From Alistipes sp. (GTDB lineage Bacteria; Bacteroidota; Bacteroidia; Bacteroidales; Rikenellaceae), in the NCBI GenBank assembly GCA_017531305.1, contig JAFXLG010000027.1, positions 59,168 through 123,167 of the forward strand: DNA of 64,000 bases, read 5' to 3'. The translations under genes were made by a program, and so were the position numbers. Under the pieces are notes generated by a model. That model did no database searches, was not told where the DNA came from, and was given only the letters and a program-made list of their open reading frames with translations. Below, piece by piece: positions 47,416 to 61,149 of the stretch (position 1 is its first letter; each line of letters begins with the position of its first letter).

Positions 47416-48900
47416 CTATCTTTTACGTTTTAGAACACTACGAATGAGTGCTTCGAGGTTAATATTTTCGCGTCTGACGGCGTATATCACATACAAAGAG
47501 AACAAACACAAATTCAGCGCATAGAGCATTGCGCCCTGCAAACTTAGAGTGCTGATAGCTGCCTCGCTCACAAAATAGAGCCCCACGCCCAACACCACAT
47601 ACTCCGCAATACGCTTCAGATCATAAGGCGTAGGGAAGTAACGGCGATTCAGATAGTAGCTCACCACGACCATGGCACTCTCGGCGATCAACCTTGCCCA
47701 CGCTCCGCCGTAATATCCCCAGCGAGGGAGCAGCAACAGGTTGAAGATTATGGTAACGACTAATCCCACCATGGTCACATAGACGGCAAAACGAGTCTTC
47801 TCCTCACGCTTATACCAGAACGATAGGTTGAGCCACACGCCCGCCAAGACGTTGCCACCCAAGATGACGGGCAGGATGAAGATACCCTCGCGGAAGTCGC
47901 GACCAACGATCAGAGCAAAGAGATCGCGGAAGAGGGCGATGCCCAAAAATATCATCATCGAGACCATCATGTAGTATTTCAACGCGGCAGCATTGGACTC
48001 CTTGAACTCACTCTGCGAGAAGTTCGAGAGGAAGAATGGCTCCGCCGCCAAGCGGTACATCTGGGTGAAGAGCGTCATCACCACAGCAATTTTGCAGATA
48101 GCACCATAGATACCCAACTGCGCCATAGAGTCGGTGGGGATGATATATTTGATCATCTGACGGTCGATAAACTCATTTGCCGTACCTGCGATACCGCCAA
48201 TCAAGAGCGGCAGAGAGTAGGCAAAAATTTTACGCAACTGCTGCGTATCGATATGAGGCAGGGTGCGATCCACCGTACGCAAAATCAGCAGGAAGGTCAC
48301 CACGCTGGCTACAAGGTTTGTCACAAAAACCCAACCCACGCCAAACTCCGAGTCAAACAAGCCGACAAGCTCAAATCCGATGGCAAGCGAGACATTGATA
48401 ACCACGCTGCAAGCCTTGAGCAGTACAAAACGCAGAGCCTCGCCACGCTCCCTCAGGCGCGAGAAGGGGATCATGGTAGCCACATCGAAGAAGATGATCA
48501 GAGCCACCAGCATGATATACTCCGAATGTCCGACATACGCCTCGCCCATCAGATGGGTGATAGGTTCGCGGAAGAGCCAAACGATGACAAAAAAGAGTGC
48601 CGCCGCCACCAGATTTGCACCCCACGTTGTGGCAAATAGATGACGTTTGCGAGCCTCGATCTGAGCCTTATCGCCCCCCTGAGCCTCAGCCTTGGCGGCA
48701 AAGCGGAAGTAGCTCGACTCCATACCCATCGAGAGCAACACCAGCGCAAAGGGGATCAGAGCATAGACATCGGTAACGATACCATACGCCTCCTGCCCGA
48801 AAATACGCGTGTAGATCGGGGTGAGCAGGTAACTCAGGAACCTGACCACAATGGTGCTGATGCCGTAGATGGCTGTCTGTTTGGCTAATTTTTCAAGCAT
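47416..48900 (-). CDS. MATE/Wzx-like oligosaccharide flippase
   Basis: A 494-residue protein with about 14 membrane segments of the polysaccharide-exporter fold ([20 protein letters not shown] at the start, [39 protein letters not shown]). It likely moves lipid-linked glycans across the inner membrane. It is next to dut in many Bacteroidales, away from polysaccharide clusters, so its substrate may be a conserved envelope glycan (inference). Confidence 0.9.
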
Positions 48901-49274
48901 AAATCTCTCTTTTGCAGGGCATTATCGGCGTCTATGGTCTGCATCGGCATGCAGAGCGAAACACCCTCTCGCATATACGCAGGCGCATAATGCACATATT
49001 GCACGCGCGCGTAATGCGCACAATAAAACGCAAAGTTATATAAGAGTTTTGACAAAACAAAATATTTGGCTACTTCTCAGCCCCTTTCTGCACAAACGTG
49101 ACCAGATATCTGCTTGTCTGTTTTTCACCAACTCGGCTATCACGCCTAAATTTTGAACAAAGGAGATCGGGGAAAGATAAATTTGTTGATTTCGCATCGT
49201 GCCTGATTTACAGAGGATTGCGTATGCAAAGTTAAATTAATTGATTTTTATTGTGAATTTTTTAGTTAAAATAC
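48901..49274. other. Gene-free region between flippase and phage module
   Basis: No credible gene is seen. The part 48970-49023, in the flippase leader, is a GC-rich tract of mostly alternating purine-pyrimidine with GCGCAT and ATGCGC as inverted arms and CACGCGCGCG in between. Another TAACTTTG reading left lies at 49227-49234 without a matching -33 box. The region is otherwise AT-rich. Confidence 0.5.
49031..49062 (-). promoter_or_regulatory. Promoter of the flippase-dut operon
   Basis: On the minus strand TTTTG (two overlapping possibilities near 49053-49062) precedes TAACTTTG (49031-49038) at a spacing of about 15-20 bases. It predicts a leader of roughly 125 bases. Confidence 0.55.
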
Positions 49275-49305
49275 TTGACAAACGCTTATTGAGATATTAT
49301 ATTTG
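49275..49305 (+). promoter_or_regulatory. Promoter reading into the phage module
   Basis: TTGACA at 49275 and TATATTTG at 49298-49305 (full match to TAnnTTTG) lie about 20 bases apart. It is the only strong promoter seen upstream of the phage-structural genes and has host consensus. Confidence 0.65.
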
Positions 49306-49727
49306 CACTGTCAAACAGATCCAAAGACAAGCGTTAGCGAGCGTCTAAAAGCATTTTAGTGGTTAGACGATGGATTTGCAACAAGCTAAAGCAATTGGTT
49401 AAATAAATGAACTTAGATTATGAAGAATCAGCAAATAACATTCTTGATAGCACTGACCGCAGAAAAACTTTGCGTAGTGAGTTTTCAACATATTGACAAT
49501 TGCCGAATCGGGGTTTTCAACATCGGGCGTAACAAATGGAAACATCGGAAAATCTCATAGTTACGCACCATTGCTGCCGAGTTATTACACATAATTAACA
49601 CTCTGCTGACATATTATCAACACCCCAAAACCCTTTTCACACACATTTTAGCCACCAATCAAAGTTGGTCTGCATCTGCACGATGCAAGACCAGCACCAT
49701 TACACCCTTAACCTTAAACCAAAACCA
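49306..49727 (+). other. Leader of the phage module
   Basis: About 420 bases between promoter and first clear gene. It holds the 9-mers TTTTCAACA at 49482 and 49514 and TTATCAACA at 49614, all on the same strand and resembling DnaA boxes with one mismatch, and TTTTCACAC at 49634. It may be a regulatory region for the module (inference). Confidence 0.4.
49420..49560 (+). CDS. Possible 46-residue leader ORF
   Basis: An ATG-started frame beginning MKNQQITFLIALTAEKL, with a basic C-terminus (GRNKWKHRKIS). No relative is recognised. It could be a small regulator or a chance frame; the codons overlap the TTTTCAACA repeats, which makes a chance frame the more likely reading. Confidence 0.2.
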   Translation: MKNQQITFLIALTAEKLCVVSFQHIDNCRIGVFNIGRNKWKHRKIS

Positions 49728-50132
49728 ATGAACAGAAGTTATCTAAACAACACAATCAAAGCACTCGCCGAGGCAAAAGGATACAACTTCCACGACTCGG
49801 AGAGCCAGCACTTTGCCGAGCAAATCAAGGGTTATCCGACCATCGTACTCGAACCACCAAAATTCATCGAAATGGAGGGTCGCCGACATGGGAAGATAAG
49901 CTACTCGATCCGTCTGCACGCAATGGAGGAGGGAGCGAAGCTAACGGCTGATGCAAGAAATGTTGCATACGCAGGGTTAGAAACAGACCTCATAGAGATC
50001 CTCATGCAACTATCCAAGGAAAAGCTGATTATCTGCGTAGAGTCGCTCCAGATAAGTTGTAGCAACGCTCAGCTGACTCCTCACTGTGAGGTGGCAGCCA
50101 CAGCAACAGCCAAAATCACAACGATGTTTTAG
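49728..50132 (+). CDS. Hypothetical protein, first gene of phage module
   Basis: A 134-residue protein starting at the ATG 49728-49730. It is not recognised. It has a N-terminal helical part (YLNNTIKALAEAKGYNFHDS), a beta part with ISYSIRLHAMEEGAKL and a long middle helix (TDLIEILMQLSKEKLIICVE). Size and pattern resemble small neck or tail-completion proteins of Bacteroides phages, but this is only suggestive. It is followed by a 157-base gap containing the hairpin CCTCGC-ACGA-GCGAGG at 50233-50248. Confidence 0.6.
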   Translation: MNRSYLNNTIKALAEAKGYNFHDSESQHFAEQIKGYPTIVLEPPKFIEMEGRRHGKISYSIRLHAMEEGAKLTADARNVAYAGLETDLIEILMQLSKEKLIICVESLQISCSNAQLTPHCEVAATATAKITTMF

Positions 50133-50289
50133 GCTCGGCAAACGGCTGAATCTTGCAACATTTCTTGCATTTTTGCTCCTATAAAAACTCGCCGACAAAG
50201 ATGATATAACCTAAAACAACAGCCCGATTTCACCTCGCACGAGCGAGGCTGAATAAGGCAAAAAAGAAACCCTTAAAATCACAAGAAAC

Positions 50290-51264
50290 ATGAAATTTAC
50301 CTCATTGCCCGAGGCGTACAACTCGTTTCGGGAGCCACTACTTTGCAGTTTCGATACAGAATCGGCGACTGCAAAAGATGTAGAGATACTTATCAAACGA
50401 GCCGATGACGACAAAATCATTGGGCGCAAACGGCTCAAAGGTGTCACAAGCGGTCAGATTGATATCGCACCTTATCTGCGCAATGCCGTACAACCAACTC
50501 TTCCTCAAGAGGTTAAATCCTGCACCGAGATCGACACAGGCACGCAAATAAGAGTCTATCTCGAATCGGATGGCGTGGTCTCGGAACGCCGCCGATACAT
50601 AGCTGCCAAAGTTGATTTAGAAAAGGATTACATGCCCTTGACAACGCAGATAGAGCATCGCACAATGGCTGCCGATGAATTCGACACAATTTCGTATTTT
50701 GCTTATCCTGAGATAGTTGTGGAGGTACTCGTGGAGGCATACGGCAAGAGCTACTCCTACCTCAGGGTGCGTCCCGACTCAGGCGGTCAGAGAACCATAG
50801 CCATCACCGCACTACCATTCGATGAGGTGCCCGATGAGCTAAAGGTGAGCGTGGAGGTTGACGGAGTGGTCGAGTCGATATACCACTATCAAATCAAACA
50901 AAACCTCAAAGGATCGCGCCGTCTGGCATGGCTAAACCATAACTCTGCACTCGAGATCTACACCTTCCCACTGCGCAAAAGCGCACTGATCGAGGCTACA
51001 CGCCGTCACATGGAGACAATATGGGGAAAGGAAGCTGCTGCGGTGGAGAGTCATGGCGAGCTAAAGCTACTCTCGGCATACGAGCCCGAAGAGCAGATCG
51101 AAGCATTGGGAGAAATATTATCTTCGCCAAAGGTTTGGCTCATAAGGGGTTGCAAGGCTCAGCGAGTAGAACTCCGTGCCGAGCGCACGCTCACAATGCC
51201 ATGCGGAGAGATGGGTATAATCGAGGTTGATGTATGTGCCGCCAAGGAGGGCGAGAAGCTATGA
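50290..51264 (+). CDS. Putative phage tail-tip/distal tail protein
   Basis: A 324-residue protein. An N-terminal beta domain (EPLLCSFDTESATAKDVEIL; GQIDIAPYLRNAV) and a later block RRLAWLNHNSALEIYTFP follow a pattern I associate with structural proteins placed after the tape-measure gene in Bacteroides siphophages; here no tape-measure gene precedes it. Its TGA overlaps the ATG of the next gene (ATGA), so the two are coupled and probably form one substructure. Function is inferred only. Confidence 0.6.
   Translation: MKFTSLPEAYNSFREPLLCSFDTESATAKDVEILIKRADDDKIIGRKRLKGVTSGQIDIAPYLRNAVQPTLPQEVKSCTEIDTGTQIRVYLESDGVVSERRRYIAAKVDLEKDYMPLTTQIEHRTMAADEFDTISYFAYPEIVVEVLVEAYGKSYSYLRVRPDSGGQRTIAITALPFDEVPDELKVSVEVDGVVESIYHYQIKQNLKGSRRLAWLNHNSALEIYTFPLRKSALIEATRRHMETIWGKEAAAVESHGELKLLSAYEPEEQIEALGEILSSPKVWLIRGCKAQRVELRAERTLTMPCGEMGIIEVDVCAAKEGEKL
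51241..51250 (+). promoter_or_regulatory. Shine-Dalgarno-like site within the upstream gene
   Basis: AAGGAGGG lies ten bases before the ATG at 51261 inside the end of the previous gene. Purine-rich sites of this quality are rare in this window; it favours 51261 over the in-frame ATG at 51234. Confidence 0.5.
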
Positions 51265-53603
51265 TCAAGCTAAGAATTGATGGGCAGGAGTGCCACCTCG
51301 GTGCCGACTTCAAACTGCCCGAAAAGATTGTCATGCTCGACATGGCACGCTTGGGCGATCTGAATGCTCTGCGACAAGGGCATAGCGTAGAGGTGGAGAT
51401 TCCCTCCTCGCCGCACAACGACTCAATCATGTGCTACCCTGCCGATGCAAAGGCTGCCCAGCACTTCAACCAAAGCCACCACGAAGCTCAGATCGAGGTT
51501 GACGGCGCGACCTTGATGCAGGGAGTGGTGCATCTGGTGCAGACCGTAGCCGACAAGAAGGGAGCTTCAGCCTACCATCTTCGCATATATCAGGGTGGTG
51601 AGGATTGGATGGAGACGATGGCTCGCAAAAAGCTCTCGGAGACCAATTTGGAGTACGAAAAGATCTTCAGCACAGAGACAATCGAGGCAAGCTGGACGGA
51701 TGATGTGGCGGTGCGTTTTCTGCCGCTGCACTACGACTCATACACTCCCGAGCAGGCGGAGGCTACGCTAAACCCGCTGCTCAGGATAATGACTGTGGAT
51801 GACTACCATCCGTTCCTCTCGGTCGAGAAGCTCACGAAGGCTATTTTTGCCCAAGCTGGCTACCAAGTGGAGAGTCAGTTTATGGAGAGCGAGGAGTTTA
51901 AGAGCTTGTTAATCAGCGGAAAGTATGCCTCGGTGAGTGAGGTCGCGCAGAGCCGACTCGCTGCCTACACGGGTTTCGAAGCTGGACGCAGCGCGGAGGT
52001 CTCAGCCACAGCATCCAATCGCGGAATGGTGTGGCTCTCGCCTGCATCGTTGACCAACTCAACGGGAAACTTCGTCAACACCACAGATGGCGAGGGGCTT
52101 TACAACAGCAACGGCGTATTCTCCATCAGCGAGGATCGAGGCATGTGGTACCACCCCAAGACCACCCAAACAGTGGGATTTGAGTATGAGTTTCGCTACA
52201 AAACCCCTTACACTATCGTTTCGCCAAGCCGACTCGCGGGTTTCGACTCGATCTACTTAGGTGAAAATGCCGACTTTAAGTTCGAGTTGCCTAATCCGTT
52301 CAAGGATTGCCGAGATTCGCTCCGAGCAGATGGGAAGTATGTCTGCCGAATATTTACGGATACGAATAACAGGCGACTGCGATTGATAGGTACGGTGGGC
52401 ACGTTGCAGAGGCTATTGTCAAATGTCTATGAACAGAAGACGATATTCACAGTCCCAACCACCATGGGAAATTGCTCATGCGAGTTGCAGATTGCCGATG
52501 CAGACGGAGTATATACCCCCTATGATGGAGAGTGGGCAATCTACGAGAGTTATGTCGAGGAGGAGGGCGAGATCGAGGTGGCGGTCAAGCTACGCACTCC
52601 TGCCGAGGAGATTACTCCAGCCACGGGTAAATCATTCAACGGCATATACATCTACGGAGCGCAAGCCGACCAGCGTCTTACTCTGCTCCAAGGCACACGT
52701 CTGCGTGCGGTATTCTCGCCAGCACCAGCTTTAGGTACAACCCTACGTTGGGCTGACATCGCGCCAAAGGATGCTTCGCAGCTGGAGTTTATAGACTCCA
52801 TCCGACAGATGTTTAACCTCAGATTTATCACCTCTGGCTCGGAACACAAGGTCTATATCGAGCCGCTGACTCAATTGCTGAGCAACGATGTGAAGGACTG
52901 GCGCGACAGGGTGATATGCTCCGACAAAATCACGGTGCAAGACTCGGCAAAGGGGATAAGCCGAGAGCGACTCTTGGGTTATCGAGCAGAGGTGGATGGC
53001 GCAGTGGGTAGATTCAACGACACAGAGCAGACAAAACTCGGAGAGTGGGAGTATCGGATGACAAACCGCATCTCTACGCCATCGCTCAAAGAGATTCGCA
53101 ACGCCCTATTCTCGCCCACGCTCACCGCTCAGACCAAAGCCGACACCCCTTCGGCGATGATCATGCAGGTGGGAGATCGTGATGCCGAGGATCAGAGTCT
53201 GACCACAAGAATCGTAAGTTACCGAGGCATGAAGCCCTTGCCCACAGCCGAGACGTGGGGCTTCCCATCCTACGGCAAAGAGTATCCCTACGCCACATTC
53301 CACGACAAGGAGGAGCTGACGCTCTGCTTCGAGGACCGTGACGGACAGGTGGGACTCCACCGCTACTACGATGAGGAGTGGCAAGAGCAAGATCAATGCT
53401 CCGAGGTGGAGCTTTCGATCAGGCTACAACCTTATGAACTGGAACTTTTGTGTGACGCAGAATCGACCATAACGACACTCGGCTCGCTATATCTACTGAA
53501 TATCTCAGGCGAGGAGGCTCTCTATCGACTGCAGGCGATAGAGTCTTATGACAAGGAGCGAGCAGTGGCAAGATGCAGATTCCGCCGAACACTGAAAGAT
53601 TAA
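51261..53603 (+). CDS. Large putative phage tail/baseplate hub protein
   Basis: A 780-residue soluble protein, all beta-rich. The N-terminal 130 residues (LRIDGQECHLGADFKLPEKI; QIEVDGATLMQGVVHLVQT; YHLRIYQGGEDWMETMARK) resemble the hub-type region of tail-associated proteins from Bacteroidetes phages. The centre (about 250-500) has receptor-binding-like beta-sandwich sequence, and residues 520-600 return to a conserved core (QLEFIDSIRQMFNLRFITSG). No signal peptide and no catalytic motif is seen. It overlaps the previous gene by four bases. Assignment rests on context and general pattern. Confidence 0.6.
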   Translation: MIKLRIDGQECHLGADFKLPEKIVMLDMARLGDLNALRQGHSVEVEIPSSPHNDSIMCYPADAKAAQHFNQSHHEAQIEVDGATLMQGVVHLVQTVADKKGASAYHLRIYQGGEDWMETMARKKLSETNLEYEKIFSTETIEASWTDDVAVRFLPLHYDSYTPEQAEATLNPLLRIMTVDDYHPFLSVEKLTKAIFAQAGYQVESQFMESEEFKSLLISGKYASVSEVAQSRLAAYTGFEAGRSAEVSATASNRGMVWLSPASLTNSTGNFVNTTDGEGLYNSNGVFSISEDRGMWYHPKTTQTVGFEYEFRYKTPYTIVSPSRLAGFDSIYLGENADFKFELPNPFKDCRDSLRADGKYVCRIFTDTNNRRLRLIGTVGTLQRLLSNVYEQKTIFTVPTTMGNCSCELQIADADGVYTPYDGEWAIYESYVEEEGEIEVAVKLRTPAEEITPATGKSFNGIYIYGAQADQRLTLLQGTRLRAVFSPAPALGTTLRWADIAPKDASQLEFIDSIRQMFNLRFITSGSEHKVYIEPLTQLLSNDVKDWRDRVICSDKITVQDSAKGISRERLLGYRAEVDGAVGRFNDTEQTKLGEWEYRMTNRISTPSLKEIRNALFSPTLTAQTKADTPSAMIMQVGDRDAEDQSLTTRIVSYRGMKPLPTAETWGFPSYGKEYPYATFHDKEELTLCFEDRDGQVGLHRYYDEEWQEQDQCSEVELSIRLQPYELELLCDAESTITTLGSLYLLNISGEEALYRLQAIESYDKERAVARCRFRRTLKD

Positions 53604-53625
53604 ATTTTAAAACCTTAAAAACCTT

Positions 53626-54756
53626 ATGCAAACCAAAATCACTATTAGAAACGAAGCCCAAACCTGCTACATCGATATCGAGGGTACAATCGGCATCAGC
53701 GAGGAGAATCAGAGGGGCGGCTCCTCATCGAGCGTAGCTACATTCGAGGCATTTCGCCGAGAGGTGGCACGCATAGCCGAGGTAGCTGCCACATCGGTGG
53801 TCGTGAACATTCGCTCTACGGGTGGCGATGTAAACGATGCATTGCTCATCTACGAGGCTCTGCAAGCATTAGACGCCCGCATCACAACACGTTGCTACGG
53901 ATACACCGCTTCGGCAGCCACAATCATTGCACAGGCGGCAAACAAGGGTTGTCGCGAGATCTCAAGCAACGCCATGTATCTGATTCACAAATCGACATGC
54001 GCCATTGATGGCAATGCAGAGTCGTTGGAGAGTCGTGCCGAGCTACTGCGCAAGACCGATGAGCGTCTGGCACACCTCTACGCCCTGCATGGTGGTGACT
54101 CTGCCGAGAACTACGCTCTGCTGATGGGCGAGAACAATGGCGAGGGTCGCTGGCTGACTGCCCAAGAGGCTGTGGAGGCAGGTTTGGCAGATAAGATCAT
54201 CGACAACCTGATGGTCGGAGTGGAGATCCCCGACCCTGATGCACCCGCCCAGAGCGAGGATAGCGACACAACCGCTGAGCAGGGTTCGGCGGTAACGGCG
54301 GCAGCCGAGGTGGCGGTAGAGAATCGCCGTCAAAAGGGCGGTGCAAACTCCAAGAAGCAGATGCGCAGCACCATAGGGCGTGTGGCACATGCTGTGATAC
54401 GTTACCTTTTGGGGCGTGTGGCATATCGCTGGGATGAGTGGATGGATAAGATCGAGAAGCAACGCGAGGAGAAGCTCAAGGAGCGCGCTGCGGAGCGCGA
54501 GGCGCAGAAGCACAGCGATCCAGCCACAGAGAGTCCTACGAAGGAGAGTCCCGCATCGGAGTCGGCAGGTAGTCAGCCTTCGCAGCTGCCTCAGGACAGA
54601 GGAGCTTTCGATCGCTCTGCGTTGCAGCTACGCGAAGGTCAGCTTGGCATAAAGCCAACGATGACCAAGGAGGTCGAGGATCCTTCGATGGTGCGTTACC
54701 ATTCGCTCTCCAACGAGAAGGCTTATGACGAAGACGCCAAACTCTTTTCCCGATAG
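53626..54756 (+). CDS. ClpP-like prohead protease with fused scaffold-like tail
   Basis: A 376-residue protein. Residues 1-195 are an S14 (ClpP-type) peptidase: NIRSTGGDVNDAL, nucleophile Ser96 in YGYTASAATII, His121 in NAMYLIHKS, and the Asp-region GRWLTAQEAVEAGLADKI. Such enzymes cut scaffold and capsid proteins during phage head assembly. Residues 200-376 are charged and of low complexity with a predicted coiled coil (KIEKQREEKLKERAAEREAQ) and resemble a scaffolding domain, a fusion known in other phages. The gene lies directly before the major capsid gene, the usual phage order. Confidence 0.85.
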   Translation: MQTKITIRNEAQTCYIDIEGTIGISEENQRGGSSSSVATFEAFRREVARIAEVAATSVVVNIRSTGGDVNDALLIYEALQALDARITTRCYGYTASAATIIAQAANKGCREISSNAMYLIHKSTCAIDGNAESLESRAELLRKTDERLAHLYALHGGDSAENYALLMGENNGEGRWLTAQEAVEAGLADKIIDNLMVGVEIPDPDAPAQSEDSDTTAEQGSAVTAAAEVAVENRRQKGGANSKKQMRSTIGRVAHAVIRYLLGRVAYRWDEWMDKIEKQREEKLKERAAEREAQKHSDPATESPTKESPASESAGSQPSQLPQDRGAFDRSALQLREGQLGIKPTMTKEVEDPSMVRYHSLSNEKAYDEDAKLFSR

Positions 54757-54766
54757 GGAAAGAGAG
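54741..54766 (+). terminator. Hairpin over the protease stop codon
   Basis: CTCTTTTCCC pairs with GGGAAAGAG around GATA; the TAG stop lies in the loop and right arm. There is no T run, so it may reduce rather than end transcription between protease and capsid genes. Confidence 0.45.
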
Positions 54767-54769
54767 CCT

Positions 54770-54920
54770 AAAGAGTGCCAATCATTGGGCTTTCAGCCCT
54801 CTGTGGCATGACAACTCTAAGAGCTATATTATTAAATCATCTTGCTAAACATCTTTTTGCAGGATTAGCTTCACACTAATAAAACACACCTTAGGTGTGC
54901 GCCCGTAACGGGTAGAAAAA
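54770..54920. repeat. Modular hairpin repeat inside the phage module
   Basis: It contains GGGCTTTCAGCCC-TCTGTGGCATGACA, then TTATTAAATCATCTTGCTAA and CACTAATAAAACACACC, ending with the palindrome CACACCTTAGGTGTG and CCCGTAACGGG. It is the reverse-orientation partner of parts of 80-300. It fills the gap between protease and capsid genes without disrupting either. Confidence 0.75.
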
Positions 54921-54951
54921 CACATTTTTAAACACTTAAACAAACACTATT

Positions 54952-55944
54952 ATGTCTAACATTATCGTAAATCCAAAGAACTATACAGGTCACGAACTTG
55001 AAACCATCTTCTTCCGTCCATTGCTCACAGGTCCTTCTGCCGAGTCGCTCGGAATCCGCATCCTCTACAACATGCCTATGCCGACTGTGGTGCAGGTGTG
55101 GGATCGCAAGGGCAATGTACTCACGCCATACGATGAGTCTTCATCATGGAGTGGCGGCGTAAAGACCACACACTACCAGAAGACAATCCCTATGGCTCGC
55201 GTTAAGGCTGAGAATGCCTTTTCGGCAAGCGACTACTTCTCTACCGTATTTGAGATGATCACCAACCGTCCCGACATCAACATGGAGGATCTGACAGGCA
55301 CCGACTTGGAGGTTGCCGAGACTGAGCTTTTCCGCCGTTCGATTGCCGAGAGCATCCGCATGAACCTCTGGTTAGGTGACAAGGGTGGCACGCTCAACAC
55401 AGGCTACAACAGCTTTGACGGTTTGTTGAAGATCGTTAACGAGCGCGTAAAGAACAACTCGCTCTTCTACAACCGCACCGACTTGGATGACTTCCTCTCG
55501 GAGTATCACGTAACCGAGGCATTCAGCCAGATCATCGCCGAGTCAAACCCACGCCTCAAGGGTCTCTTCCCTGAGGGTCAGTGCGCATTCTTCGTATCGC
55601 CAAACATCTACTCGATCTACGAGAACTATCTCGACACAGCCTTCGGCGCAGCGGCATATAGCGACAACCAGTATGGTCGCAAGAACTTGATGTATCACGG
55701 ATTCCCTGTCATCGAGATCAACTTGGAGCCTGCAATCAGCGAATCATCGCTTTCGAGCAGCTTCATCATCTTCACCGATCGCCGCAACTTGGTAATGGCG
55801 GTCAACACTGCCGACAATCCTGCTTCGGAGGTGCGTATGTGGTATAACCCAGACGAGATGGAGAACCGCCAGAGAGCTGTATTTGCTATCGGTTGCGAGA
55901 TCTTGGACGATGAGTTGGTGAGCGCAGTAATCAATCAGGCGTAA
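54952..55944 (+). CDS. Phage major capsid protein (HK97-like, putative)
   Basis: A 330-residue protein. Features expected of capsid proteins from Bacteroidetes phages are an extended N-arm, LTGTDLEVAETELFRRSIAE, the phrase FVSPNIYSIYENYLDTAFG, HGFPVIEINLEPA and the C-terminal strand block SFIIFTDRRNLVMAVNTAD with the ending AIGCEILDDELVSAVI. Codon choice is like that of strongly expressed host genes. Position after a ClpP-type prohead protease and close to a portal gene supports the call. No direct database match can be claimed. Confidence 0.8.
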   Translation: MSNIIVNPKNYTGHELETIFFRPLLTGPSAESLGIRILYNMPMPTVVQVWDRKGNVLTPYDESSSWSGGVKTTHYQKTIPMARVKAENAFSASDYFSTVFEMITNRPDINMEDLTGTDLEVAETELFRRSIAESIRMNLWLGDKGGTLNTGYNSFDGLLKIVNERVKNNSLFYNRTDLDDFLSEYHVTEAFSQIIAESNPRLKGLFPEGQCAFFVSPNIYSIYENYLDTAFGAAAYSDNQYGRKNLMYHGFPVIEINLEPAISESSLSSSFIIFTDRRNLVMAVNTADNPASEVRMWYNPDEMENRQRAVFAIGCEILDDELVSAVINQA

Positions 55945-55969
55945 ACCCACTCAAAAAAGAGTCTGAGCC

Positions 55970-56428
55970 ATGAGCGCAAATGAGTTTTACAAGCCTGTGG
56001 GCGGGATTCTCGCAGCGGAGCTGTTTCTGACAAGGGATCTCTGTTCGATGGAGGATCTGGCAACAGCGCAACCCATTGCCGTAGAGCTTGTGGATGACGG
56101 ATCGCTCTATGAGGAGCATTTCATTCAGGAGAATGGATTGGTGAGCGTGAGTCACACGCTCACCCTTCGCTCCGACAGGATGCTTGCCGAGGAGTGGTTC
56201 TCGGTGGAGCTGATGCAGATTCTTGCAGTGGAGGGAGCTGTGGCGCGTGTCCAGATGGCGACAGGCGAACAGATCACGATAGGATACTCGCCACGCATGG
56301 GCTTCAATCAGGCGTTGCGTCTGGAGAGCCTGAGTTTCTCCTCGGGCGAGAAGCCCTGCTCTTCACCATGCGTAGAGCTTAAGCTCCACAGCCGAGATCT
56401 ATGCTCGGCATTAAGCAACGGCAATTAG
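55970..56428 (+). CDS. Putative head-tail or tail-tube protein
   Basis: A 152-residue protein beginning NEFYKPVGGILAAELFL, beta-rich, with the pattern of a small structural protein placed after the capsid gene in Bacteroides phages. The repeated short strands (LTLRSDRMLAEEWFSVELMQ) could fit a tube or head-completion protein. It is not recognised by family. It starts 25 bases after the capsid gene. Confidence 0.55.
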   Translation: MSANEFYKPVGGILAAELFLTRDLCSMEDLATAQPIAVELVDDGSLYEEHFIQENGLVSVSHTLTLRSDRMLAEEWFSVELMQILAVEGAVARVQMATGEQITIGYSPRMGFNQALRLESLSFSSGEKPCSSPCVELKLHSRDLCSALSNGN

Positions 56429-56477
56429 AAAATTCGGGGAACAGCAGAGTGAATTCATAATTCAAATTTTCCTTCTT

Positions 56478-56576
56478 ATTCAACGTCATGCCACAGAGTC
56501 TCTTTAGGACATATGATTGTAATCGCTATCCTATTATAGTTTGCGATCACTGCCTTACGGCTTCTGCGGAATGACC
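56478..56576. repeat. Diverged modular hairpin repeat inside the phage module
   Basis: It starts GTCATGCCACAGAG and ends, read in reverse, GTCATTCCGCAGAAGCCGTA. In the middle GTAATCGCTATCC pairs partly with TTTGCGATCAC. It fills the gap between the 152-residue protein gene and the portal gene. Confidence 0.65.
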
Positions 56577-56601
56577 TATTCTAAAACTTAAAAACTAAAG
56601 A

Positions 56602-57825
56602 ATGACTAACACTAAAACAAAAACCCTTGTGGCGGTGGGAAACTCCACCTCGGAGCCACTCTTTTCGCTCTCCTCGCGTAAGGTGCAGAGCGAAAAGTTC
56701 TGGCGATGGGGCGATGACAACATGATGCCCGCAGCACTCTCGCTCATGTCACGCCGCTCGACAACCCACCGCCGCATAATAAACGACAAGGCAGACTACA
56801 TCGCTGGCAAGGGTTTCTCTTACGATGAGTCGAAGCCACTGTTGGAGCATCTGGTCTCTTGTGCCAACGGCAGCGGAGAGTCCTTGCGCGAGATATTCAG
56901 TCGTCTGGCATTCGACAAAGCATTGATGGGCAACGCCTTTTTGGAGGTGGTGACCGATGAGAAGCACACCTTCCTATCGCTCTACCATCAGGATGCTTCG
57001 CGATGTCGTCTGGCGAGAGATTCGCAACACGTCTTGTTGCACCACGACTGGAGCCAATACCGAGCTGACGAGGCGCAGAAGCTACCACTTTATCCCGCCT
57101 TCGAGAAGCAGAGTGACGGCACCCTGCGTTCGATAATCCACTACAAGGAGTACGAGCCGATGTATAGCCACTACGGCGTGCCAAAATATATCGCTGGAAT
57201 GGGTGTATCGGCTATCGCCTACAAGACCGACTGCTGGAACATTTCGCGTCTGGACAACTCGTTCCAGCTCTCTGGCGTGATGATGCTCGATGCCACAGCT
57301 CAGAGTGATGCCGAGGCAGAGCGCATAGTACGCATGGCGGAGCAGAAGTTTGCGGGCAACCCTGGGCAGGTGATGTTCGTAATACGCGAGGGTGCAGAGA
57401 ACGACAACTCGCGCTTCATACCTGTGGAATCGAGCAACGAGGGCGACTGGAGTCAGTTGCACGATCAGGCAACCAGCGACATCGTAATCGCACATTCGTG
57501 GTTCCGTTCGCTCAGCGGATTGGACTATGCCGCGGGCTTCAGCGCAGAGCGCATCCTGCACGAGTATGAGGTGGCACTCAACACGGTGATTTTGGCAGAG
57601 CAGGCGGAATTGCTCGCCCCCGTAAAGCGAATAATCCAGCAGCTGACGGGAGAGGATGCCTCCTCGCTCGAGATCGTAAACCGCCCACCGACACGTTCGA
57701 AGCCTATATATATGAAGGTGTGGGAGGCACGCAAGGCAGATGGTCTGGAGTACGATGAGAGCGATCCCGAGCAGCAGCAATATCTCTCGCAGATCACCAA
57801 ATATAACGTAACGAAGATAAATTAA
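56602..57825 (+). CDS. Phage portal protein
   Basis: A 407-residue protein. Typical portal features are the N-terminal FWRWGDDNMMPAALSLM and the clip/wing region HRRIINDKADYIAGKGFSYD, LAFDKALMGNAFLEVVTDE, SLYHQDASRCRL, a stem helix region around IVIAHSWFRSLSGLDYAAGF, and the C-terminal ERILHEYEVALNTVILAEQ. This protein forms the DNA entry ring of the head and docks the terminase. No terminase gene is in the window. Confidence 0.85.
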   Translation: MTNTKTKTLVAVGNSTSEPLFSLSSRKVQSEKFWRWGDDNMMPAALSLMSRRSTTHRRIINDKADYIAGKGFSYDESKPLLEHLVSCANGSGESLREIFSRLAFDKALMGNAFLEVVTDEKHTFLSLYHQDASRCRLARDSQHVLLHHDWSQYRADEAQKLPLYPAFEKQSDGTLRSIIHYKEYEPMYSHYGVPKYIAGMGVSAIAYKTDCWNISRLDNSFQLSGVMMLDATAQSDAEAERIVRMAEQKFAGNPGQVMFVIREGAENDNSRFIPVESSNEGDWSQLHDQATSDIVIAHSWFRSLSGLDYAAGFSAERILHEYEVALNTVILAEQAELLAPVKRIIQQLTGEDASSLEIVNRPPTRSKPIYMKVWEARKADGLEYDESDPEQQQYLSQITKYNVTKIN

Positions 57826-57912
57826 AAGGGACTTTTCGCAGCCTTTTAAATCTTTTTAGGATTCAGGATCGCCCTTAGGGGAATCTTGAATTAACAAAAA
57901 AACCTATACACT

Positions 57913-58386
57913 ATGAAAAACATTATTTCGATATCAGAGTTACTCGCCATAGCCTTCAGCGATGGGGGTTACATCCCTCAGGATGTGATCGCAGATTCGG
58001 ACATCAAGGCGGCTGCGGAGCGATGGGTAATACCCGTCACGGGCAGAAAATTGATGGAGGCTATCGCAGAGGGTAAATATCCCGAACTACGCCAAGAGTA
58101 TGTTGCTCCCGCGATAGCACTCTACACGCGCCTGCTGGTGCAGCCTCGCCTGAATGCCATGAGTGGCGTGGGAGGCTTAACTACGGGCGGAGGCTCGGCG
58201 CGCAAGGCGGCTGATGAGTCGCTGCGCAAGGAGCATCATGACGCCCTAAGGAGCAAGGCTCGCGCACTGCTGAAAGCACTCTCCGAGGAGCTGAATCTCA
58301 AGGCAGAGGCATTTAAGGAGTACAACCCGAAAGAGAACATCCTAAACCGTTGTTGCTGTGATGGAGGCTTTGTGCAAGTATATTAG
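57913..58386 (+). CDS. Putative head-tail connector (DUF6712-like)
   Basis: A 157-residue mostly helical protein (SELLAIAFSDGGYIPQDVIA; AAERWVIPVTGRKLMEAI; YVAPAIALYTRLLVQPRLN) that looks like the DUF6712 adaptor type placed beside portal genes in Bacteroidetes phages. Its end overlaps the holin gene by 26 bases. An imperfect hairpin (TTCAGGAT/ATCTTGAA) lies upstream at 57858-57894. Confidence 0.65.
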   Translation: MKNIISISELLAIAFSDGGYIPQDVIADSDIKAAAERWVIPVTGRKLMEAIAEGKYPELRQEYVAPAIALYTRLLVQPRLNAMSGVGGLTTGGGSARKAADESLRKEHHDALRSKARALLKALSEELNLKAEAFKEYNPKENILNRCCCDGGFVQVY

Positions 58387-58783
58387 TGGAGTGCTGCTAT
58401 CGTTGGCAGCACTCTTCGCCCCGATAGTGCCATTAATATGGTGCGTGGTGGGGTTTATCGGTTTCGACTTTATAACGGGAGTGGTGGCATCGCGCACCGA
58501 GTCGCGTGAACAGGGCAAAGAGTGGTATTTCGAGAGCCACTTGGCATGGCGCACCGCCCAGAAGTTGGGTTTCACGATAATTGCTTTGTGTATGGCGTTC
58601 TGCATAGACGAGTTTATGCTCGATTTTCTGTCGTTGCACCTGACAAAACTCTTTGCGGGGTTTGTCTGCGGAGTGGAGATGTGGTCCTTCTTGGAGAATG
58701 CATGCAGGGTGAGCGATGCGCCCCTGCTCAGATACTTAAAACGCTATGTGCGCCGCAAGGTGGGAGAGGAGGTGCAGAGATGA
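58361..58783 (+). CDS. Phage holin family protein
   Basis: A 140-residue protein with three to four membrane segments (LLSLAALFAPIVPLIWCVV, WCVVGFIGFDFITGVVA, GFTIIALCMAFCIDEFMLD) and a basic C-terminus, as in the holin group of Bacteroides phages that opens the inner membrane at lysis. The ATG at 58361 is chosen; a GTG at 58358 is one codon earlier. It overlaps both neighbours, so connector, holin and the next gene form one translation unit. Confidence 0.8.
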   Translation: MEALCKYISGVLLSLAALFAPIVPLIWCVVGFIGFDFITGVVASRTESREQGKEWYFESHLAWRTAQKLGFTIIALCMAFCIDEFMLDFLSLHLTKLFAGFVCGVEMWSFLENACRVSDAPLLRYLKRYVRRKVGEEVQR

Positions 58784-59199
58784 GTCGCGGAACGAGAAAC
58801 TGCAACCCCGGCAACATACGCCGCAGTCGGGTACGCTACAAGGGTGAGCTGCACCCCTCTTTAGACCCCGCCTTCAAGCAGTTTGAGTCGATGGCGTGGG
58901 GCTACAGAGCCATCTTCATTTTGCTGGACACCTATCGTCAGCGTTACGGTCTGGAGACCATACGAGGCATGATCTCGCGCTACGCCCCACCCGAGGAGAA
59001 CCATACGGCACTCTACATCGAGGCGTTGTGCGACATGACAGGCATAGGGGCTGATGAGCCACTCGACACACGCTCACGCAAGGTGATGGTGCCACTCGTA
59101 GCCGCCATCTCGAAAGTGGAGAATGGAGTAAATGCCTCATGGAGCGAGGTAAACGCAGGCTTCGATTTGACAGGGTTCTGCCCTGCAAGACAAGGGTAG
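58780..59199 (+). CDS. Structural protein P5-like/lysis-associated protein
   Basis: A 139-residue protein starting RGTRNCNPGNIRRSRVRYKG, with FKQFESMAWGYRAIFILLDT and GLETIRGMISRYAPPEENHT. This pattern is common to Bacteroides phage and prophage proteins annotated structural protein P5, which probably have a lysozyme-like or muramidase-like fold and follow the holin. Its ATG overlaps the holin stop (ATGA). It is the last gene of the module. Confidence 0.8.
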   Translation: MSRGTRNCNPGNIRRSRVRYKGELHPSLDPAFKQFESMAWGYRAIFILLDTYRQRYGLETIRGMISRYAPPEENHTALYIEALCDMTGIGADEPLDTRSRKVMVPLVAAISKVENGVNASWSEVNAGFDLTGFCPARQG

Positions 59200-59213
59200 A
59201 GGGATTTCAGAAT

Positions 59214-59430
59214 TCACACCCGTAACGGGTGTTTTGTTAGTGGGCAGCTATTTTTGCTGAAGAGTGTTGTTGATAGTTTGGTCGCTTCTCACGTCACTCC
59301 ACCGAGCGTAAGCGAGGATTGGAGTCTCTAACGAAAAAGTTTTAGTGGCGATATTATTAATGTAGAGATGCTTTCTCATCGGATGATAAATCATCCTCTG
59401 TGGCATGACACCTCTAAGAGGTGTTTTAGA
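59214..59430. repeat. Composite modular hairpin repeat after the phage module
   Basis: It opens with CACCCGTAACGGGTG, then has GTCACTCCACCGAGCGTAAG and GAGGATTGGAGTCTCTAACG, GGATGATAAATCATCC followed by TCTGTGGCATGACA, and the palindrome ACACCTCTAAGAGGTGT (59408-59424). Together with the 110 AT-rich bases up to comEC it fills the 340-base gap; no gene is seen there. Confidence 0.75.
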
Positions 59431-59541
59431 AAATTTTCTCACTAATGAAAGTTATCTGTTACACGTTAGCCTAATTCAAAATTACATTGTTTTCTTTGCT
59501 ATACAATAAATTTTAGCTAATTTAGGGATCGAAACCTAACC

Positions 59542-61149
59542 ATGCAACAAATGAAAAACCTCCCTTCCACTCTCCTTGAGCGCGTAGGTCTATCGCCGAT
59601 GATAGTGGCTTTGGCGGCTACTGTGTTGGGTGTACTCTTTGCCGAGCACTTCGCTCCTCCGTTATGGAGCGTGGTTCTCGGCTTTGTTGTATGTGTGGGT
59701 ATGGCGATTGTGCGTTACGGCAACTCTTACGGCAAGTTATATCTCTTTCTGGCATTGGCTTTTGCGGGCGGGATGTCGATGTGCCTAAGGCAAGATCGCC
59801 TGCGGCTTGACAGTGAGTCAAGAACAATCCACCTAAAGATAGGCTCGGTCAGCAACCCCACACCCTCCACCCAGCGTGCCGAGGGCGAGGTAAAGCGTAT
59901 AGATGGGCTAAAGTGCGACTTCAAGGTGCGCCTTAATACAGCCGAGGGCGTGGAGCTAAGGCGTGGTGAGGAGATTGTGGTAAAGGCTCGGATCAGGGAG
60001 TTCGGCTCTGCCAATCAGGACGGTGCGCAGAATAGATACGAGCAATATATGGTGCGTCAAGGCTTCAAGGGGCAGATCTTTTTGCGCAAGGAGATGATCA
60101 TCGAGCGTCATGAGTCACCTATTGGCATGGCTCAGCGAGCGCAGCAGATGGCTCACCAAAAGATTCAGCGGTTGGGACTCTCCGAGAGTGTCGAGGCGGT
60201 GGTCTTGGCTATGGCAATCGGCGACAGGAGTCAGATCTCGACCTCGCTGCGCCGCCACTACACCCGCAGCGGAGGGGCGCATCTGCTGGCGGTTTCGGGT
60301 TTGCACGTGGGATATATCTTCGTGCTGATAAACCTTCTGCTTCTGCCTGTGGCTCTGCTCAGACGCGGTCAGGTAATAAGGTCTGTGGTAGCTATCGGGG
60401 TGATATGGGCATACGCCACGATGACGGGACTTGCGCCTTCGACCACAAGGGCGGCGGTGATGTTCTCGCTGCTGCAACTCTCGCTCATGACAGCCTCTCG
60501 TTACAACTCGCTCAACGCGCTCTGCCTGACGGCTATGGTGATGTTGCTCTGGCGGGGCAACAACATCCACGATGCGGGATTTCTACTCTCGATGTTGGCG
60601 GTATTTGCCATCGTGGAGTGGGCAATGCCCGCCATACGCCACATTGGGCGTTGGCACGCGCTCACACTCGAGCAGAGGCTTCAGCTACGCTCGCAGAGGG
60701 TGCGCTGGGTGGTGCGAAGCACGCTTATCGGCTTAGAGCGTTGGTTGCTCAGCTCGCTGATAATCTCATTGGCAGCAACGCTGATTACCATGCCACTATC
60801 GTCCTATCTTTTTGGGCAGATCTCGCTCTGGAGCGTTGTTACAGCACCCGTAATGATACCTCTGGGCGGTGTGGTTGTGGCATTGGCGATGATTTATATA
60901 CTCATGCCCGCGTCTCCGTTGCAAGGTGCAATGGGTTGGTGTTTGGAGACAGTTGGAGGATGGATGAACTCACTCGCCGAGTGGTGCAGTCAGACGGGTG
61001 TGATAGCCTATGAGATAGAGATCGGCTTGTGGAGTTGCTGGGCGATATATATAATTTATGGAGTGGCAAGCGGCGTTTTGAGAATTCAAAATTCAAAATT
61101 AAAAAAAGGGCTGCCCAACAAGAAAGTTGAACAGCCCCGTAGCCTATAA
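59542..61149 (+). CDS. comEC: ComEC/Rec2-type DNA uptake channel
   Basis: A 535-residue inner-membrane protein that carries single-stranded DNA into the cytoplasm during natural transformation. It has an N-terminal DUF4131/OB-like part (residues 20-180), then the competence domain with AVSGLHVGYIFVLINLLLLP and TGLAPSTTRAAVMFSLLQL. The metallo-beta-lactamase domain found at the C-terminus of ComEC in Bacillus is absent, as in many Bacteroidetes. The last 20 codons overlap an AT-rich repeat (RIQNSKLKK) and the terminator of the convergent M13 peptidase gene, so the protein end is probably recent. It follows the phage module on the same strand. Confidence 0.92.
   Translation: MQQMKNLPSTLLERVGLSPMIVALAATVLGVLFAEHFAPPLWSVVLGFVVCVGMAIVRYGNSYGKLYLFLALAFAGGMSMCLRQDRLRLDSESRTIHLKIGSVSNPTPSTQRAEGEVKRIDGLKCDFKVRLNTAEGVELRRGEEIVVKARIREFGSANQDGAQNRYEQYMVRQGFKGQIFLRKEMIIERHESPIGMAQRAQQMAHQKIQRLGLSESVEAVVLAMAIGDRSQISTSLRRHYTRSGGAHLLAVSGLHVGYIFVLINLLLLPVALLRRGQVIRSVVAIGVIWAYATMTGLAPSTTRAAVMFSLLQLSLMTASRYNSLNALCLTAMVMLLWRGNNIHDAGFLLSMLAVFAIVEWAMPAIRHIGRWHALTLEQRLQLRSQRVRWVVRSTLIGLERWLLSSLIISLAATLITMPLSSYLFGQISLWSVVTAPVMIPLGGVVVALAMIYILMPASPLQGAMGWCLETVGGWMNSLAEWCSQTGVIAYEIEIGLWSCWAIYIIYGVASGVLRIQNSKLKKGLPNKKVEQPRSL
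61101..61138 (-). terminator. M13 peptidase terminator inside comEC
   Basis: On the minus strand GGGGCTGTTCAAC pairs with GTTGGGCAGCCC and is followed by seven T residues. It lies wholly within the coding end of comEC. Confidence 0.85.

Follow-up and report, generated by a model that had tools for sequence, protein, structure and literature searches.

Gene transfer agents (GTAs) have been characterised in Rhodobacterales, Bartonella, Caulobacter, Desulfovibrio, Brachyspira, Methanococcus and gut Bacillota, according to a study on FpGTA, the GTA of Faecalibacterium (PMC12946183). FpGTA consists of a ten-gene structural operon of 10.5 kb and a second operon approximately 125 kb away, and its particles are described as having no identifiable tail (PMC12946183). 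Here we describe a set of phage-derived genes in Alistipes sp., consisting of a ten-gene structural operon within a 64,000-nucleotide stretch of contig JAFXLG010000027.1 (the window) and an unlinked terminase locus in the same genome. It is very probable that these genes stem from a phage that an ancestor of the Rikenellaceae domesticated, and that they have since been retained for a DNA-packing particle. That this particle is a GTA is the interpretation we favour, with clearly less confidence. Labels starting with G denote genomes, with g genera, with L loci or contig stretches and with C contigs; G000 is the genome of the window.

RcGTA, the GTA of Rhodobacter capsulatus, is a vertically inherited, phage-derived cluster under selection that occupies several loci; its terminase is located in the main cluster and is not tied to the element's own DNA. 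Capsid-forming phage-inducible chromosomal islands (PICIs) encode a capsid, portal, protease, connector and terminase of their own but no complete tail, and are mobile and sporadic. In contrast to these islands, the Rikenellaceae set is retained throughout the family and is split over the chromosome in most genera examined. It resembles RcGTA in its vertical inheritance, the selection acting on it and its division over several loci, and differs from it in the position of the terminase, outside the structural operon. RcGTA also has a tape-measure protein (PMC7947584). A tape measure was not matched in the window genome, and a tail of that type is not required of all GTAs, as illustrated by FpGTA.

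With FpGTA the Rikenellaceae system shares the presence of two operons, head genes, a terminase, a holin and an endolysin, and the lack of replication genes (PMC12946183). The two belong to different phyla. In the Rikenellaceae the terminase stands apart with a regulator, the lysis genes are joined to the structural genes, and the system extends over a whole family. FpGTA is backed by particle, proteomic and DNA evidence (PMC12946183), whereas the Rikenellaceae system is known from its genes alone. No such system was described in the titles and abstracts of open-licence PMC articles on GTAs in Alistipes, Bacteroidetes, Bacteroidota or Bacteroidales, or on prophages of Alistipes or Rikenellaceae.

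The structural operon and a related prophage

The operon (G000:C9, positions 49728-59199 of the window, + strand) contains ten open reading frames, all intact, as stated in the first-pass annotation, and the ATGA overlaps mentioned there are present in the sequence at 51261 and 58780. Gene families were assigned by PHROG and Pfam searches, and folds by Foldseek comparison of AlphaFold2 models made from family alignments. Most of the functions proposed at first were supported by family matches. These are a ClpP-type head-maturation protease with a C-terminal extension (53626-54756; phrog_94, 3.6e-35; PF00574, 4.3e-28), a portal protein (56602-57825; phrog_11226, 3.5e-20; Pfam 5.6e-9, slightly under the Pfam cut-off), a head-tail connector-like protein of family DUF6712 (57913-58386; PF20459, 1.9e-7), a holin (58358-58783; PF05105, 6.5e-11; phrog_199, 1e-5) and an endolysin (58780-59199; phrog_873, 6.6e-41; PDB 7q47 'Endolysin', 3.3e-9). 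The major capsid protein (54952-55944) has a weak family match (phrog_1623, 3.8e-5), and its profile matches the gene at the equivalent place in a related prophage (3e-136).

Based on its predicted fold (pLDDT 89.3), orf3 (51261-53603, 780 aa) encodes a tail-hub-like protein. Its best PDB matches were chains of the lambda tail tip (8.7e-5), of baseplates of contractile injection systems, extracellular ones included (eCIS/CIS), and of the Mu baseplate, all with low TM-scores and with TNF-like proteins also among them; viral fold matches were full-length, down to 6.7e-42, and mostly to unnamed phage proteins. The model of orf2 (50290-51264, 324 aa; pLDDT 92.0) is predicted to contain FNIII-like domains and a part resembling phage tail-tube or baseplate proteins. 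FNIII and other non-phage proteins occupied the top Foldseek ranks for orf2, and chains of a phage baseplate, a monocin tail tube and the SaPI1 neck were also matched (prob 0.99-1.00, TM 0.38-0.40 of the target, E 0.003-0.013). In the family search orf2 had one weak match, with a family whose function is unknown. Searching PDB sequences with profiles of orf2 and orf3 gave nothing useful, with no PDB sequence match for orf2. Pfam and PHROG contained no match for orf1, orf3 and orf6. By position only, orf1 (49728-50132, 134 aa) is tail-completion-like and orf6 (55970-56428, 152 aa, between capsid and portal) tail-tube-like; their profiles match the genes at the equivalent places in the related prophage, weakly for orf1 (a 138-aa gene, 3e-4, filters off) and at 1.1e-6 for orf6.

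The resemblance of the hub-like fold of orf3 to contractile baseplate chains could point to a tailocin-like or other contractile killing particle. Such a particle is extremely unlikely, since capsid, head protease, portal, connector and terminase have been kept and none of the ten genes was recognised as a sheath gene with Pfam or PHROG.

The related prophage is located in G006 (C31; L110 and L070), in the order small terminase, large terminase, a 250-aa, a 138-aa and a 183-aa gene, orf2, orf3, tape measure, protease, capsid, orf6, portal, connector and holin. Like IMG/VR contigs L228-L230, it contains the same gene families as the window operon, with the same order for the shared genes. Unlike the operon, it contains a small terminase, a tape measure and the 250-aa and 183-aa genes, and by eye also single-strand-binding-like and reverse-transcriptase-like frames. 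Its portal and terminase are 50% and 54% identical to those of the window genome. The family matches, together with this prophage of the same order, indicate that the structural genes descend from a tailed phage. The gene order, at first regarded as rearranged, is native to this kind of phage, because the G006 prophage has the same order; the operon is the phage set with its terminase elsewhere and its tape measure gone. Genes for integration or replication were not recognised among the ten genes, nor by eye in the flanks and at the terminase locus of a genome that was not annotated as a whole. Within the prophage (L110:4738-7681), the reverse-transcriptase-like frame lies beside frames with similar VRAVSA endings, and by eye this region looks like a diversity-generating retroelement.

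Retention, constraint and descent

The distribution was determined with one genome per species, so that retention and decay were examined across species, not strains. The genus set contained 61 Alistipes genomes and the family set 268 Rikenellaceae genomes, of which 110 were of high quality, from 22 genera. The portal search matched 60 of the 61 genus genomes (a fragment only in G016, none in G036); of 40 genomes from other families, 1 was matched. Each matching Alistipes genome had one copy, except G006, with a second, prophage-borne copy, and G009, where the gene was split over contigs. Fifty-six of the 59 near full-length module portals of the genus were without internal stop. With the portal profile, 243 of the 268 family genomes were positive (106/110 of the high-quality genomes, 17/22 genera), 235 of the 243 with a single match. 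Homologues of orf3 were found in 233/268 genomes, 101/110 high-quality genomes and 14/22 genera. Of 344 genomes drawn from the order, 12 matched, 5 of the family and 7 from outside it; the 312 unlisted non-matching genomes may include family members.

In all 38 fetched Alistipes loci the detected module genes were in constant order, although L045, L046 and L050 were cut by contig ends and the protease of one locus was lost to a contig end. Capsid and DUF6712 connector were present in 38/38. Among these 38, no holin was found in L033 and L067 and no endolysin in L066; counted over 39 Alistipes loci, holin and endolysin were each present in 37, orf6 in 15 and orf1 in 12. Thirty-six loci, the window included, extended upstream of orf2; 12 of these contained both orf1 and orf6, and one orf6 alone. 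A gene of approximately 86 aa was present in 24 of 39 Alistipes loci and in 8 of 11 further loci (one of them Alistipes), and absent from the window locus. In the loci examined it lies between orf3 and the protease, where the phage has its tape measure, and it has no family match above chance; the idea of a shrunken tape measure was unsupported by any match.

The ratio of non-synonymous to synonymous change (dN/dS) was determined per gene, as had been proposed in the first-pass annotation, in 15 pairs chosen for closeness from 111 distinct portal sequences, with two near-identical pairs excluded and the window not among them. Medians, which leave out genes cut by contig ends or under-aligned (three cells), were 0.10 for portal (0.097, n = 15), 0.13 for holin (n = 11), 0.14 for protease (n = 12), 0.16 for endolysin (n = 11), 0.16 for capsid (n = 15), 0.20 for connector (n = 14), 0.22 for orf6 (n = 5), 0.23 for orf1 (n = 2), 0.23 for orf3 (n = 10) and 0.27 for orf2 (0.265, n = 9). 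The largest value for any module gene was 0.401. The median of 26 neighbouring genes was 0.12, with two values above 1. These values show purifying selection on the module, for orf1 on the basis of two pairs.

Distances between the sequences followed those of the housekeeping protein TopA. Mantel r was 0.66-0.91 for seven module genes (all but holin, orf1 and orf6), the terminase, its regulator and the adjoining small gene, in 17-19 genomes and with 0 of 2000 permutations reaching the observed value for each. In the portal and terminase trees, where outside rows served as outgroup or have long branches, the G006 prophage falls outside the family copies, as do two IMG/VR phages in the portal tree. 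The family copies largely group by genus, with the Alistipes rows not all together in the portal tree.

A decaying prophage that still appears whole, one of the explanations offered in the first-pass annotation, is hardly conceivable. In its favour, the Alistipes loci yielded no counterpart of three genes of the related prophage (tape measure, small terminase and the 183-aa gene), and the portal of G248 is broken. It is contradicted by the median dN/dS of 0.10-0.27, by the 56 of 59 stop-free genus portals and by the presence in 243 of 268 genomes. A sporadic module with decayed frames, which according to the first-pass annotation would make it a plain prophage remnant, was looked for across species and the opposite was found, with losses or broken genes in single genomes.

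Two local deviations were seen. In the pair L138/L143, dS was approximately 0.1 in portal, connector and holin and 0.39-0.48 in orf2 and orf3, which may reflect an exchange of part of the module between species. In the capsid, amino-acid changes in the close pairs L184/L186 and L138/L143 are clustered at residues ~150-210, which is also the least conserved stretch over 39 sequences. Is this a surface loop under diversifying pressure, or the result of recombination?

The terminase locus, its regulator and the operon promoter

The first-pass annotation had noted the absence of a terminase. This holds for the window, where PF03237 had no match, and not for the genome: a lone large terminase of 503 aa (phrog_38, 1.7e-81) is present at G000:C27, unlinked to the operon. 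A search of the genome for a terminase and a tape measure, as suggested at the time, thus recovered the former only. The terminase is flanked on one side by a small gene and a divergent XRE-S24 (CI/LexA-like) regulator, and on the other by a fabK-like gene (by eye). PF03237 matched in 57 of the 61 genus genomes, mostly as one frame of approximately 500 aa. A weak phrog_2 match (56/61 genomes) was rejected as a terminase; in the window genome it is, by eye, a PhoH-like frame. The motor and nuclease residues, which we take to be the P-loop, Walker B and nuclease motifs, are invariant in 14/14 alignment rows, one of which is the prophage.

In the family the terminase was as frequent as the portal (243/268 genomes, 106/110 high-quality genomes, 18/22 genera). 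Both were present in 232 of the 268 genomes and neither in 14, while 11 lacked only the portal and 11 only the terminase (odds ratio 26.8); these numbers were counted from the two match listings, with five unprinted genomes per search inferred by elimination. All 8 genomes of g43, g46, g48 and g49 lacked both genes. Genome incompleteness may account for many of the single absences, and prophage copies for a few of the matches.

The particle genes, dispersed in the window genome over G000:C9 and G000:C27, are clustered in other genera. On one contig of G252 (g56) the divergent regulator, small gene, an 88-aa gene, terminase, a 91-aa gene, protease, capsid, portal and connector follow each other. 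Terminase, protease, capsid, portal and connector are consecutive in G260 (g59), and G261 (g59) has terminase and head genes in one cluster with a changed order. The distance between terminase and portal is 12 kb in G267 and G269 and 73 kb in G286 (all g60), 67 kb in G242, 216 kb in G220, 755 kb in G222 and 2 Mb in G198, a single contig.

These distances bear on another explanation offered at first, a satellite, considered here as a satellite or capsid-forming island that spreads its own DNA with the tail of a helper phage. Head and packaging genes without a complete tail do resemble capsid-forming PICIs, and in g56 and g59 the genes form one small cluster. Nevertheless a satellite is very unlikely. 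The module and a terminase of its own are retained family-wide with TopA-like distances, neither the ten genes nor the C27 stretch contain a recognised integrase, and with loci 67 kb to 2 Mb apart in G242, G220, G222 and G198 one capsid is unlikely to carry both.

The XRE-S24 regulator adjoins the terminase in 19/19 non-prophage Alistipes loci, 13 of which also have tsaD nearby. Residues A98-G99, S134 and K177, presumably those needed for LexA-type self-cleavage, are invariant in 12/12 rows (g56 not among them). Strong orthologues (>350 bits) were found in nine genomes, all with a terminase. Eight genomes without either locus (G229, G233, G236-G241) had weaker relatives of the regulator or none, with a best score of 222 bits; the scores of g50, g56, g59 and of the split match of G292 fall in an overlapping range. 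The gap between the small gene and the terminase does not exceed 189 bp in 17 of 18 Alistipes loci; in L095 it is 579 bp, which could leave room enough for a small terminase. The large terminase of G220 (g42) is preceded by a small one (phrog_309, 9.5e-8). Between regulator and terminase lies a 99-aa gene (L091:10546-10845) that belongs to no known family and was found by BLAST in 18 of 20 terminase loci.

Upstream of the operon, the host-type promoter of the first-pass annotation was found again: a Bacteroidota-type match (TTGACA, 17 bp, TATATTTG) at 49275-49305 (+), the only such match in the window, with 0.03 expected. Of 36 Alistipes loci, the window included, 35 have a TTGAC...TANNTTTG match ahead of their first gene. 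Between promoter and orf1 lies an untranslated leader (49306-49727, +) in which a motif search showed oriented TTWTNRACA repeats at 49482, 49514 and 49614. In the 400 bp upstream of the 36 loci, GTTWTNRACA occurs 41 times in sense and 7 times in antisense orientation, versus 11 and 11 times in 746 kb of the same loci, a sense-strand enrichment of approximately 190-fold in Alistipes leaders. L067 is the sole locus with neither promoter match nor leader repeat. The repeats, considered as possible DnaA boxes, are near to, but not identical with, what we take to be that box (TTATNCACA). Rfam gave no match in 48800-59700.

Directly downstream of the operon, on the same strand, lies the DNA-uptake gene comEC (59542-61149), perhaps by chance. 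In Rhodobacter, uptake of GTA DNA uses ComEC. The synteny of the dut/flippase-comEC site, proposed at first as a check, was found in part: among 38 Alistipes loci, 10 have a flippase upstream and 10 have comEC immediately downstream, with both present, as in the window, in L059 and L061. Because these flanks recur in other Alistipes loci, the site is old, though neighbours differ in other species.

A probable domesticated particle and its possible role

Of the three explanations in the first-pass annotation, a domesticated, GTA-like particle is strongly favoured. A temperate phage would have been captured in the Rikenellaceae ancestor and converted into a DNA-packaging particle that belongs to the host and is inherited vertically. 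In the window genome this particle would be made from two unlinked loci, the operon providing capsid, head protease, portal, connector, tail-tip proteins, holin and endolysin, and C27 the large terminase, the small protein and the divergent regulator. Upon DNA damage or a similar signal the regulator may cleave itself and release the terminase locus, and the structural operon would be switched on from its own promoter. The Alistipes terminase, without a recognised small subunit beside it and perhaps without pac specificity, would then pack the heads with host DNA; holin and endolysin would free the particles, and the short tail tip, lacking a tape measure, may deliver the DNA. Retention, constraint, co-distribution, linkage in other genera and intact terminase motifs are what we observed; regulation, cargo and delivery are what we infer.

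That the particle is a GTA is probable, because genes for packaging and lysis have been retained, Alistipes has its loci dispersed and constraint acts on the hub-like protein, as would be expected by comparison with the two-operon FpGTA. We hold this at a lower level than domestication itself, because there is no tape measure, tail genes are gone in several lineages, head-only forms exist and the Rikenellaceae, although abundant, are not named for packaging events in the FpGTA study. An even bet, in our view, is a Bacteroidota GTA lineage domesticated once in the Rikenellaceae ancestor and running from a near-complete short-tailed particle in Alistipes to head-only clusters in other genera. 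The family would then hold a long natural series in which a virus is pared down to a DNA-packing machine, with the Alistipes operon far from the terminase locus under LexA/CI-like control.

The main rival is a domesticated DNA-packaging head kept for a use other than transfer, such as the release of DNA-filled tailless capsids at lysis (extracellular DNA) or interference with incoming phages. Portal and terminase are the most widely kept genes (243/268 each, versus 233/268 for orf3), G252, G260 and G261 have terminase, protease, capsid, portal and connector without orf2 or orf3 at the locus, no tape measure is present, and orf1 and orf6 are gone from many Alistipes loci. However, orf3 would be superfluous for a head alone, and it is constrained (median dN/dS 0.23, n = 10) and present in 233 of 268 genomes. 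We regard this rival as rather unlikely, and a GTA as the preferred interpretation.

Several observations weigh against a domesticated transfer particle. A tape-measure profile, built from two phage sequences of a kind of protein that diverges fast, gave no match in the window genome, in line with the first-pass annotation, and matched sporadically in 4 of the 61 genus genomes. Both orf1 and orf6 are absent at the locus in 23 of the 36 Alistipes loci reaching upstream of orf2, and orf2, orf3 and orf6 had no match at the G252, G260 and G261 loci, which makes tail-mediated delivery doubtful in these cases. The terminase of G260 and G261 has no regulator match beside it, and no operator common to operon and terminase locus was seen, as judged by eye. 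Internal stops occur in 3 of the 59 genus portals, the G248 portal is interrupted, the G226 terminase is in two pieces, and G189 has a terminase and neither portal nor orf3. The portal and terminase profiles each include one prophage row, so that a few family matches may be prophage genes. Finally, Rikenellaceae DNA was abundant in three human donors in the FpGTA study, yet the Rikenellaceae do not figure among the families reported to have GTA events, of which 17+3+3 of 25 are named (PMC12946183).

The module also bears on virome catalogues. Eight of 12 IMG/VR portal matches (L220-L227) were 63-82% identical to the module portal; the two examined, L224 and L227, carry the module gene set, and the L227 portal is nearly identical to that of G220. 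L220-L227 are host genes catalogued as viruses.

The graded losses across genera make the parts needed by a domesticated particle directly testable. Although known here only at the level of genes, the system suggests that virus-like particles are produced by these bacteria themselves, perhaps as a means of passing stretches of their DNA from cell to cell. Alistipes and its relatives are common gut bacteria, and if the particle moves DNA, they would have a built-in route of gene exchange.

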